Source: Sphingobacterium endophyticum
GTDB lineage: Bacteria; Bacteroidota; Bacteroidia; Sphingobacteriales; Sphingobacteriaceae
Assembly: GCF_009733535.1 (NCBI RefSeq)
Contig: NZ_SMMI01000004.1
Span: 62,001-126,000 of the forward strand
Length of the DNA stretch: 64,000 nucleotides
Direction: 5' to 3'
The notes beneath the pieces were generated by a model. That model was given only the letters and a program-made list of their open reading frames with translations, had not been told where the DNA came from and ran no database searches. Shown here piece by piece: positions 11,338 to 13,621 of this stretch (its first letter is position 1; the number at the start of each line of letters is the position of its first letter). The position numbers were made by a program, and so were the translations under genes.

Positions 11338-11497
11338 AGCTCACAGAATAGAAATTAAAAATTCTTTTCTTTATTTCTGATGAATTGGTTGATAAATTCA
11401 ACCAATTCTTATCATACATCAATTTTAGTTCGCTTTGTTCCCCCTATCTTTATAGAATTATTTAAAACTTCTACATTAATTATTTTGTTAATTTGAT

Positions 11498-11815
11498 ATG
11501 AAAGATAAATTTATCAACCTACCTCTAACGAAGAACGAAGAAAAAAGTCGATTTGAATTGAATGTTGATGGACACATCGCATTTATTGACTTCAAGGAAA
11601 CGAATAGCACAATCGCATTAATACATACCGAAGCACCTTCTGAACTAGCCGGTAGTGGAACCGCAGCTGCATTGGTAGAAAAAACCTTGAACTTTATAAA
11701 GGAATCCGGAAAAACAGTATCTCCATATTGTCCTTATGTTTTCGCATTTATTAAGAAAAATCCACAGTGGAAGGAACTTGTCTCAACAAGATTCCCAAAA
11801 TATGATGAACTTTAA
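11498..11815 (+). CDS. Small GNAT-like acetyltransferase (YidJ/Gcn5-like CG family)
   Basis: A 105-residue protein of the short GNAT-like family (Acetyltransf_CG type), which keeps only the core acetyl-CoA-binding part. Recognisable parts are FELNVDGHIAFIDF, the loop EAPSELAGSGTAAALVEKTL, which replaces the usual RGxGxG motif, and the conserved SPYCPYVFAFIKKNPQW near the C-terminus. The length is normal for the family. The substrate is unknown. It stands alone between the acyl-CoA synthetase gene and a strong terminator. Confidence 0.85.
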   Translation: MKDKFINLPLTKNEEKSRFELNVDGHIAFIDFKETNSTIALIHTEAPSELAGSGTAAALVEKTLNFIKESGKTVSPYCPYVFAFIKKNPQWKELVSTRFPKYDEL

Positions 11816-11832
11816 AAACTCTTAAAAAACAT

Positions 11833-11866
11833 AATGCCCTCTAAATTCATTAGAGGGCATTTTCAT
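11833..11866 (+). terminator. Rho-independent terminator after the GNAT-like gene
   Basis: A perfect 12-bp stem, AATGCCCTCTAA (11833-11844) with TTAGAGGGCATT (11850-11861), has a 5-base loop and a short T-rich 3' side. It starts 17 bases after the stop codon. Confidence 0.85.
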
Positions 11867-11994
11867 AAAAACTGCATAAATCGACATCTGATTTTTTCCA
11901 AAATAATCTGATCAGATTTTTAGTTTTTCTATACTACCTGTTTCCAATTATTTCCTCCTTCTGCACAAACAAGCATTAATGGGCTCCATTACTG

Positions 11995-12170
11995 GTTTCA
12001 CTTTGGTTTTGCTCGTGTTTTGCTCGTGAATGGTCCGCACATTGGTTGGACATTGTCTACAGCTCGTCCGCTCATGAGCGGACGAGGTCCTTACTAGGCC
12101 ATAACAAGGTGCGGATGAATATCGACCATGAGTAGACCAAGAGTAGACCTAGAGTATACCAAGAGTAGAA
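11995..12170. repeat. Degenerate 11-nt tandem array with central 24-bp palindrome
   Basis: Cut into 11-mers from 11995, the stretch gives 16 units that share partial motifs. Adjacent identical or near-identical units are GTTTTGCTCGT twice (12006-12027), ACATTG-starting units (12039 and 12050), and CATGAGTAGAC, CAAGAGTAGAC, CTAGAGTATAC and CAAGAGTAGAA (12127-12170). A perfect 24-bp palindrome (CTCGTCCGCTCA and its reverse complement) spans 12063-12086. Bases outside it also mirror around the same centre, for example TCCGCAC at 12034-12040 with GTGCGGA at 12109-12115. Function unknown; a transcribed copy could fold into a long imperfect hairpin. Confidence 0.75.
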
Positions 12171-12302
12171 TTAATCAGGTTGGATAATTTTCAAAAAAAC
12201 TTATGAATAACAATGTGGGGAAATACCTCGTTTTCCAATTTAATAAACTGATTTACAATAATTTATAATGAATTTGATTCAGAATTACAGTAGAAAAAGA
12301 AA

Positions 12303-12328
12303 GGGAAGCAATCTGGCAATTGCTCCCC
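12303..12328 (-). terminator. Likely terminator downstream of nuoD
   Basis: Read on the minus strand, GGGAGCAAT pairs with ATTGCTTCCC (one bulged base) around a TGCCAG loop and is followed by TTTCTTTTTCT. It lies about 100 bases past the nuoD stop, which suggests that the operon ends here. Confidence 0.6.
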
Positions 12329-12427
12329 TAACTATTAACCAATTATAAACTTAAATTATGAGATAGCAAATATAAGTATTTAATCGATTATTCCTAATTT
12401 TTTTTTGCGTTTTTATGCATGTTTATT

Positions 12428-13621
12428 TTAACGGTCGACTTCACCAAGCACGATATCAATCGAACCCAATATTGCAATCAGATCCGCAATCAATACCCCT
12501 TTCCCCAATTCAGGTAATACGGACAAATTATTGAAACTTGGTCCCCTTGCCTTAATCCTTTTTGGAATATCAGTCTTCTCTTGGGTTACAAAATAAAAAC
12601 CTAATTCACCTTTAGGATTTTCTGCCCTAACATAATATTCCTGTGCTTTAAGATTAACCTTTTTAGGTACAAGACCCCGAGGATCAAAATCTGGAGTCCT
12701 TTTGAAGTCCTGCATTAATCTTGGTAAACACTGCTCAATTATTCTTACGGATTCCTTAACCTCGTCCACCCTGACTTTATAGCGATCCCAACAATCGCCA
12801 ATGGATCCCATTATACCTTGGCCAACTGGAATATCGAACTCCAATTCGGGATAAACCGAATAGCCATCCACACGCCTTAAATCCCATTTTATTCCTGATC
12901 CTCTTAACATTGGTCCGGAACAACCATAATTTATCGCTACATCTGCTGGAAGAACTCCAATATTCGCCGTTCTTTGTATAAAAATCTGATTGTTTGACAA
13001 TAACTCATCTAGTTCCACCAATTTCGGCTTGAAGTAAGCAATAAATTCCTGACAACGTTCTTCAAAATTCACAGGTATATCATAAAACAAGCCTCCAACC
13101 CAAATATAATTGTAAAGCATCCGGGATCCAGATGCCCATTCCAACATATTCATAATATGTTCGCGATCTCTAAAGCACCACATAAAAGGCGTAAATGCTC
13201 CAATATCTATTCCATATGTTCCAATAGCAATTAAGTGTGATGCAATCCTGTTCAATTCCGTAACCAACACTCGAATATATTCAACCCTTTTAGGAAGCTT
13301 GTCTTGAATACCGAGCATTCTTTCCACTCCCATCACAAACCCATGCGCATTATTCATTGACGCTAAATAATCTAATCGATCCGTAAAGGGTATTGTCTTT
13401 CCGTAATTCATGGATTCCGCATGCTTATCAAAGCATCGATGCAGATATCCTACATGGGGAATAATATCTTTTACGATTTCACCATCCGTAATTAGTTCCA
13501 GCCGAAGAACACCATGCGTGGATGGATGTTGAGGACCCATATTGATTACCATTTCTTGTGAAGAAACAGTGGATATCTTATTCTGATAATTTTTATATGC
13601 TTGTTGGTAGAGTTCGTTCAT
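12428..13621 (-). CDS. nuoD: NADH-quinone oxidoreductase subunit D
   Basis: The 49-kDa subunit of complex I, forming part of the quinone site in the peripheral arm on the cytoplasmic side. The 397-residue length is normal. Clear family motifs are [34 protein letters not shown] and the C-terminal [18 protein letters not shown]. It starts 5 bases after nuoC, and pdxH is the first gene of the group. The usual nuoE, F and G genes do not follow: a terminator-like hairpin and a repeat array are found instead. Confidence 0.97.

Follow-up and report, generated by a model that had tools for sequence, protein, structure and literature searches.

Mirror-symmetric arrays of 11-nt units dispersed over Sphingobacterium chromosomes and their association with the DUF6266 family

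An inverted array beside a complex I gene

The window analysed here, a stretch of 64,000 nt from the draft genome of Sphingobacterium endophyticum (4.72 Mb in 48 contigs), contains an inverted array of 11-nt units in the spacer between an acetyltransferase gene and a complex I gene (Table 1). The same pair of neighbours flanks the orthologous site in the sister species G053 and in two further species of the genus, G066 and G082.

Table 1. Features of the array and its surroundings in the window
Feature	Position	Strand	Description
Left neighbour gene	11498..11815	+	GCN5-related acetyltransferase, PF14542, 105 aa
Terminator-like hairpin	11833..11861	none	3' of the acetyltransferase gene, beyond the element; inverted repeat with 12-nt arms
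Whole element	11993..12170	none	Inverted array of ~7 + 8 units of 11 nt, dyad centre between 12074 and 12075; delimited by conserved block, unit layout, and lag-11 and dyad tests
Left arm	11993..12062	none	Units such as GTTTTGCTCGT, GAATGGTCCGC and ACATTGGTTGG; usual type of this genome
Central palindrome	12063..12086	none	Perfect over 24 bp; inner stem retained in nearly all copies
Inner right arm	12087..12123	none	Diverges from most copies in this genome
Outer right arm	12124..12170	none	Four GACCAAGAGTA-type units; like the outer units of sister species G053
Right neighbour gene	12428..13621	-	Complex I subunit, nuoD-like (named from its sequence and an earlier note); converges on the element

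A sequence-only reading of this DNA had described a row of 11-mers around a perfect 24-bp palindrome, whose flanking units were able to mirror each other at about 40 of 66 positions by hand count. Our measurements bear out the period, the palindrome and the dyad. Autocorrelation over 11995-12170 peaks at lag 11 (0.558) and lag 22 (0.461), with every other lag from 5 to 24 at 0.18-0.31; the lag-11 value lies far above 2000 dinucleotide shuffles of the same piece (0.248 ± 0.034, maximum 0.376; z 9.2). Around the palindrome centre 43 of 69 positions form mirror pairs, and outside the palindrome 31 of 57 do so versus 15.6 ± 3.1 in shuffled arms, a count reached by none of 2000 shuffles. Tandem Repeats Finder (TRF) detects only the ends of the array, at 12006-12028 and 12124-12169, again with period 11. 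The earlier reading had staked the array on its periodicity and on the existence of other copies, and both were found: period and dyad exceed shuffled sequence, and copies occur in the same genome and, by profile search, in related species.

That reading had also placed the element where the complex I operon is interrupted. The complex I context looks incidental, because other copies sit beside other genes. Within the same spacer, on the side of the complex I gene, a block of about 85 nt (12295-12380; GGGAAGCAATCTGGCAATTGCTCCCC followed by a hairpin and a tail) is nearly identical in G053, G066 and G082, a conservation far above that of the rest of the spacer; a terminator with a conserved 3' element or a small RNA is possible.

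Copies, spacing and spelling in the genus

The earlier reading had suggested a BLASTN search of the own genome; run with 11900-12200, it returned 59 matches, many of them doubled over the two strands owing to the palindromic form of the element. We extracted 30 further loci and aligned 31 copies, two of which are cut by contig ends; the alignment comprises 153 columns without an internal gap. A sequence model built from these 31 copies recovers the same 31 and two weaker matches at C3:202.7 kb and C5:103.2 kb, which brings the genome to 31 clear copies, one mosaic and one weak. Across the 31, the conserved block starts at about -82 and ends at about +88 relative to the centre, corresponding to window positions ~11993 to 12162. 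The arms are rows of 11-mers, most of which carry a near-invariant dinucleotide in a fixed position, TC on the left and GA on the right, and unit conservation is highest near the centre and fades outward. Subfamilies share their ends, L016 and L017 having an end shifted by exactly one unit. A rough gene call over the copies yielded no convincing gene (short open frames span 12 of 31), and the adjacent genes are convergent, divergent or tandem.

Two observations on these copies may be added. At the centre of the palindrome (window 12073-12076 in the present copy) the middle four nucleotides are mostly TGTG or CACA across copies, as if the centre flips. A GC-rich subfamily (L033, L034 and L035) lies at the contig ends of C25, C1 and C13, and the assembly may break at longer or near-identical copies.

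Among related species the outcome of the search depended on its method. Plain BLASTN gave matches in 2 of 40 and 2 of 93 genomes, the own genome included, and none that is credible among the 92 other species of the genus; the matches L040 and L070 are apparent chance hits in coding sequence. Diverged families were instead detected by profile models: the model of the own copies (R1) matches 12 other species at E 0.01, and a model of 19 G053 copies matches 53 of 93 Sphingobacterium genomes, the own one included, at E 0.001. We inspected 26 of the relatives' loci and all fetched G053 and G088 arrays as sequence, the other profile matches resting on their score. The complete 4.73-Mb genome of G053 carries 36 full arrays and one half array, and G088 carries 18. 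Each lineage has its own unit spelling, with GTTCGGACCTC inside and GTTCCACTCTC outside in G053, TTCGTACCTCG in G088 and TTCGGTGCTTC in the S. multivorum group. The exact core palindrome had 0 matches in a genome contig collection (the own genome possibly lying outside the search).

A wider pattern scan for arrays returned 107 stretches (L140-L246), of which 80 were examined. Eight Oscillospiraceae matches from metagenome-assembled genomes (L142, L144, L147, L172, L177, L190, L197 and L210) share a block that recurs, mostly behind what resembles the end of a tRNA gene, and looks like a terminator, and several Gram-positive matches look like chance. About 17 Bacteroidales matches are alike by flank; the three that were translated are Fic-type genes with a coding 11-nt repeat and do not represent this element. 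In these loci (L161, L162, L213 and about 14 similar ones, named from sequence) the tandem 11-mer CAAGTACCGAA encodes a repeated linker of 11 residues, QVPNKYRTSTE; this 11-mer also occurs in intergenic arrays, possibly by chance, since the same pattern retrieved both.

For a comparison of flanks we assembled 139 loci: 39 of the 80, chosen as intergenic Bacteroidota, together with 33 own, 37 from G053, 18 from G088 and 12 others. Both neighbours were called at 130 of them, at least two loci being counted twice. Every arrangement of neighbouring genes occurs, and by this rough gene call the neighbours are divergent at 27 of the 130 loci. Seven of the 18 G088 arrays (L332, L336, L338 and L340-L343) adjoin an IS3-like transposase gene, named from sequence; an insertion sequence may prefer array sites in this species.

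The arrays are widely spaced. The minimum gap between the 36 sites of G053 is 41.5 kb, a value reached in 0 of 200,000 simulations; random placement gives a mean of 3.7 kb. The 33 own sites, distributed over 19 contigs, have a minimum within-contig gap of 44.9 kb (P 2e-5), and the 18 sites of G088 one of 52.3 kb (P 0.014). The own and G053 spacings are not independent, because sites are shared. Gap lengths vary little in G053 (P 0.002) and not significantly less than expected in G088 (P 0.11).

Ten of the 33 own loci, including the window site (L261), match one of the 37 G053 loci on both flanks and in the same orientation, as judged on 4- to 5-kb loci by proteins of at least 55% identity on each side, not always from the nearest gene; well under one such match is expected by chance if about 3000 spacers are assumed. 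Six more match on one side at above 80% identity, and between own and G088 loci there were 0 matches on both sides. Yet the arrays at these shared sites resemble each other no more than other cross-species pairs do. Mean local scores are 87.9 within the own genome and 95.6 within G053, as opposed to 21.4 between the two species and 20.7 for orthologous pairs (permutation P 0.28), and aligned identity is 0.65 for orthologous and other cross-species pairs alike, compared with 0.81 within the own genome and 0.85 within G053. An earlier comparison of ungapped, dyad-centred windows, some with wrong centres, had given 0.58 within G053 and 0.36 for orthologs; the gapped local alignment agrees with it. 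Since the flanks are shared with G053 while orthologous arrays are no more alike than any other cross-species pair, we read the sites as old and their letters as young, which would mean that the arrays evolve in concert without leaving their sites, either through gene conversion or by tracking a binding protein that itself changes.

At the L013 site the lag-11 score is 0.61 in the own genome, 0.63 in G082 and 0.59 in G048, each array being spelled differently; G066 has a weak array (lag 11 0.49 versus 0.47 at lag 12, otherwise judged by eye), and G053 has none at the site (lag 11 0.44) but one about 4.3 kb away. The window site carries a clear array in G053 and, by eye, a short degenerate one in G066 and G082, where the lag-11 score of 0.41-0.43 is not above other lags. 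The window copy is also a partial exception to the lack of resemblance between orthologs, its G053 ortholog ranking second among 36 G053 copies. Its outer right units (12124-12170) are not of the usual own-genome type: their mean local score is 15.0 to G053 versus 9.2 to other own copies, a shuffled piece scoring 8.1-8.3, with L308 (local score 27) as the exception among own copies. Because the outer right arm is of G053 type while the core is of own type, the window copy and L308 look like mosaics, and we read the outer right arm of the window copy as an older, unconverted part.

The DUF6266 gene family

Among the 139 loci, the DUF6266 family (PF19781) recurs as a flanking gene in eight species, which belong to seven genera; three of the eight proteins were run through Pfam, with E values of 6e-23 to 2e-35. 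In each of the eight species the array is found upstream of the gene, within 330 bp in seven and at about 520 bp in L200. Within the genus, an 11-nt periodic stretch lies at most 420 bp upstream in 36 of 50 DUF6266 loci, as opposed to 1/50 downstream and 1/50 after shuffling. The 50 combine 30 loci from a database search (27 with an upstream array) with 20 chosen by hand (nine with one), among the latter L387 and L388, which were picked because an array match adjoined the gene. When similar upstream regions were collapsed, the count was 16/28 versus 1/28. The upstream lag profile peaks at 11 and 22, with smaller peaks at 10 and 20 (10 loci each) and four loci or fewer at other lags, and a dyad z of at least 4 was obtained for 19/37 loci with a periodic stretch in a 520-bp window and 1/13 loci without. 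Period-10 direct repeats of the TCCCATATCG type occur upstream of a DUF6266 subgroup (L386, L389, L391, L392, L355, L362, L365, L366 and L369), beside the 11-nt array or replacing it; their carriers include some DUF6266 genes of the own clade, and others.

Unit spelling differs between DUF6266 paralogues. Compared with 22 upstream regions, each of the other 17 G088 arrays was closest to the region upstream of the G088 gene L345, at 77-89% identity; the 22 left out the second DUF6266 gene of this species, L415 (G088:C1:4245354-4245944), which has an upstream array of another type with TAGGGGTTTAA units. In G016, G074 and S. multivorum, too, solo arrays have a counterpart of their own type upstream of a DUF6266 gene, but the best match comes from another species, which weakens the link. 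Over 93 species, 49 have both arrays and DUF6266, four arrays only, 15 DUF6266 only and 25 neither (Fisher P 1.3e-8, calculated without correction for phylogeny or genome size). DUF6266 is thus present in 49/53 array species versus 15/40 others; the array-matching species in which it was not found are G040, G045, G050 and G007.

The own clade runs counter to this association. Two DUF6266 genes of the own genome exceed the Pfam cut-off (C15:64407-64994 and C25:28163-28765), and no such array lies upstream of either, nor upstream of the DUF6266 genes found in G053, G048, G066 and G082. Own and G053 arrays have no good match to any of the 22 upstream regions, and the window copy has its acetyltransferase and complex I neighbours in place of a DUF6266 gene.

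An AlphaFold2 model of DUF6266 built from seven sequences (mean pLDDT 76) leaves residues 1-36 unresolved, continues with two helices and predicts a fibronectin-III-like sandwich for residues 111-213 (Foldseek E 2.8e-5; VIA Z up to 9.4). The structure lists, which covered mainly residues 111-213, contain no DNA-binding fold, and the predicted fold gives no indication of function. Nothing convincing was found for DUF6266 in PHROGs, PADLOC or PDB sequences. Plasmids had neither array nor DUF6266, and viral data yielded a single weak phage record and a single viral contig, in which no array was visible upstream of the gene; the family therefore looks mainly chromosomal.

Proposed role and competing explanations

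The sequence-only reading had considered a repeated protein-binding site or a structured RNA; of these, the protein-binding (DNA) branch is favoured and the RNA branch appears weak. From the observed period, dyad, copies, spacing, conserved positions, species-specific letters and array-DUF6266 association in other species, we infer, at a little short of an even chance, that the element belongs to a set of dispersed, helically phased, mirror-symmetric protein-binding arrays of a chromosome-scale system, with DUF6266 as a candidate partner. A protein would bind the 11-bp units turn after turn, outward from the central dyad, and the bound array would bend or wrap about 100 to 180 bp; the sites, whose gaps in G053 range from about 40 to 500 kb, would help to organise the chromosome. 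The letters of all sites in one genome could change together by following the specificity of a single binding protein or, alternatively, by homogenisation through gene conversion starting at the palindrome. That the protein is a member of the DUF6266 family is suggested by the upstream arrays in other species, as would suit an autoregulator or a cognate binder; against this partner stand the array-less DUF6266 genes of the own clade (own genome, G053, G048, G066 and G082), the poor match of own and G053 arrays to the upstream ones, the four species with array matches in which no DUF6266 was found, and a predicted fold that is not typically DNA-binding. A point against the proposal as a whole is that the G088 arms do not differ from their surroundings in GC oscillation.

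A broader version of this proposal, which we regard as possible although doubtful, is a chromosome-organising system across the whole phylum Bacteroidota. DUF6266 proteins would bind phased, mirrored arrays, each paralogue with its own spelling, and in each genome one paralogue would have spread over the chromosome to some 18 to 36 widely spaced sites; these would have stayed in place for a long time while their letters were rewritten in concert as specificity drifted. Dispersed bacterial palindromes are common, and Bacteroidota lack many enterobacterial nucleoid systems. We know of no sites that stay at their chromosomal position across species, hold to a strict helical design at distances above 40 kb and nevertheless change all their letters together. 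If the proposal is true, two questions would become testable: the way in which Bacteroidota chromosomes are organised, and the function of the unstudied DUF6266 family. The arrays would then also show that dispersed sites can evolve in concert in bacteria, in a manner comparable to the turnover of centromeres or PRDM9 sites.

By anatomy, the arrays are kin of the broad class of dispersed intergenic palindromes, but their combination of features fits no family tested. The parS, matS and KOPS sites are likewise dispersed over the chromosome and read by one protein, but they are short single sites with biased positions, whereas the arrays are long and far apart; in G053 the strand of the better match varies along the chromosome without visible pattern (origin and terminus not located). 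The parC locus of plasmid R1 consists of 11-bp partition iterons for an oligomerising DNA-binding protein; it resembles the arrays in its tandem 11-bp sites but is a single plasmid locus with direct repeats, while the arrays are inverted and dispersed. In the open-licence papers searched we recognised no description of these arrays, and four unit strings and DUF6266 were absent from them. The repeat and gyrase papers compared also included those on P. gingivalis repeats (PMC5771137), TAACTGA repeats (PMC4679880) and gyrase deformability (preprint; PMC12393610).

The main rival, which we judge unlikely, is that the arrays are mobile: a MITE- or REP-like element, itself non-autonomous, would be spread by a transposition machinery that a DUF6266 cassette may supply, and target immunity would keep its copies more than 40 kb apart. 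The observed spacing could indeed have this origin. Such an element would explain why so many similar copies are dispersed, why a DUF6266 family has the array upstream while other arrays are solo, why subfamilies share ends and why an array can be missing from a site and present nearby, as in G053 at L013; in G088 the outer flanks look repeated too. The age of the sites argues against it, the ten held in common with G053 on both flanks having old positions and young letters. By eye we noticed neither terminal inverted repeats nor target duplications in the own copies, whose ends differ between subfamilies and fade gradually. DUF6266 has no transposase-like match in Pfam, PHROGs, PADLOC, PDB sequences or the fold lists, and in the searches made it occurred in one phage record, one viral contig and no plasmid, a further point against a mobile cassette.

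Two specific families of this kind were compared. REP, BIME and REPIN elements with their RAYT (Y1) proteins share with the arrays dispersed intergenic palindromes, solo copies alongside a gene family with an adjoining repeat, and species-specific sequence. The own arrays differ from them in length (about 100-180 bp), 11-nt units, mirrored arms, minimum spacing above 40 kb, DUF6266 link and lack of a Y1 transposase match, PF01797 having 0 matches in the own genome at E <= 0.001, which also counts against the mobile element in general. Tagged REPs are described as 20-40-bp hairpins tagged GTAG or CGTC (PMC3733652); no constant tag of either kind was seen at the ends of the aligned own copies, the element being an array of 150-180 bp. 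The BrickBuilt MITE of Porphyromonas gingivalis is, like the arrays, an intergenic, dispersed element of Bacteroidota with internal tandem repeats, present at 19 places in one strain (PMC4596501). It is built of 23-nt direct repeats with a leader and a tail, and no match outside the species is reported for it there (PMC4596501); identity with it fails on the period of 11 and the inverted arms.

An improbable alternative holds that the arrays are strong DNA gyrase sites, in which phased GC- and AT-rich half-turns flanking a dyad would wrap DNA around the enzyme, as BIME-2 does in E. coli. Strong gyrase sites (Mu SGS, BIME-2) resemble the arrays in phasing two arms at about one helical turn and in including intergenic palindromes. 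The E. coli gyrase motif covers ~130 bp and has two arms of 47 bp in which GC content is periodic; gyrase also acts at BIME-2 palindromes (PMC6379681). In two of three species the GC content of both arms was found to follow the helical turn: amplitudes at 11 bp are 0.19 and 0.16 inside the own arms versus 0.01-0.03 outside, and 0.12 and 0.12 versus 0.01-0.04 in G053, with no such contrast in G088 (0.07 and 0.12 inside, 0.12 and 0.05 outside). Gyrase sites have no letter-specific conservation, no period in their central 36 bp and no linked gene family, and the arrays differ on all three counts. Since the gyrase study proposes indirect readout (PMC6379681), letters that are strict within a genome and different between genomes would not be expected; in addition, the unit period reaches almost to the dyad, which leaves no 36-bp centre, and the DUF6266 link would go unexplained.

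Just as improbable is a structured RNA or transcription terminator formed by a long hairpin of either strand. Folded as single strands, both strands do better than shuffles (z -4.5 and -3.1), but the same is expected of any inverted repeat, and the arms do not covary. In an arm-swap permutation the own copies gave 1433 pairs versus 1448 ± 10 (P 0.93), those of G053 1628 versus 1616 ± 13 (P 0.19) and those of G088 551 versus 548 ± 5 (P 0.31), that is, no covariation over whole arms in the three species. A weak covariation excess in the inner 13 bp of the own copies (P 0.014, few compensated pairs) would suit a hairpin; positions 90-120, outside the element, show an excess too (P 0.004), which we read as shared base composition of the flanks. 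Conserved mismatches interrupt the stem of the folded element, the divergent neighbours at 27 of 130 loci do not fit a terminator, and a separate, ordinary hairpin adjoins the window copy. Rfam 15 returned four weak matches for window 11400-12700, none above its gathering threshold and none covering the element. In named Bacteroidota loci the innermost inverted TTCG and CGAA are, by a count made by eye, mostly separated by 8 or 18 nt, two values that differ by about one helical turn. On balance we favour a DNA site, probably helically phased, over an RNA hairpin, given the exact phasing without indels, the GC oscillation in the own genome and G053, the occurrence of every neighbour-gene arrangement and the lack of arm covariation.

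Slippage can produce a single period-11 tandem repeat, but chance tandem duplication without function is contradicted by the copy counts and is extremely improbable in view of the 31 clear own copies, the 53 of 93 genomes that match the profile, the conservation of sites and the spacing.
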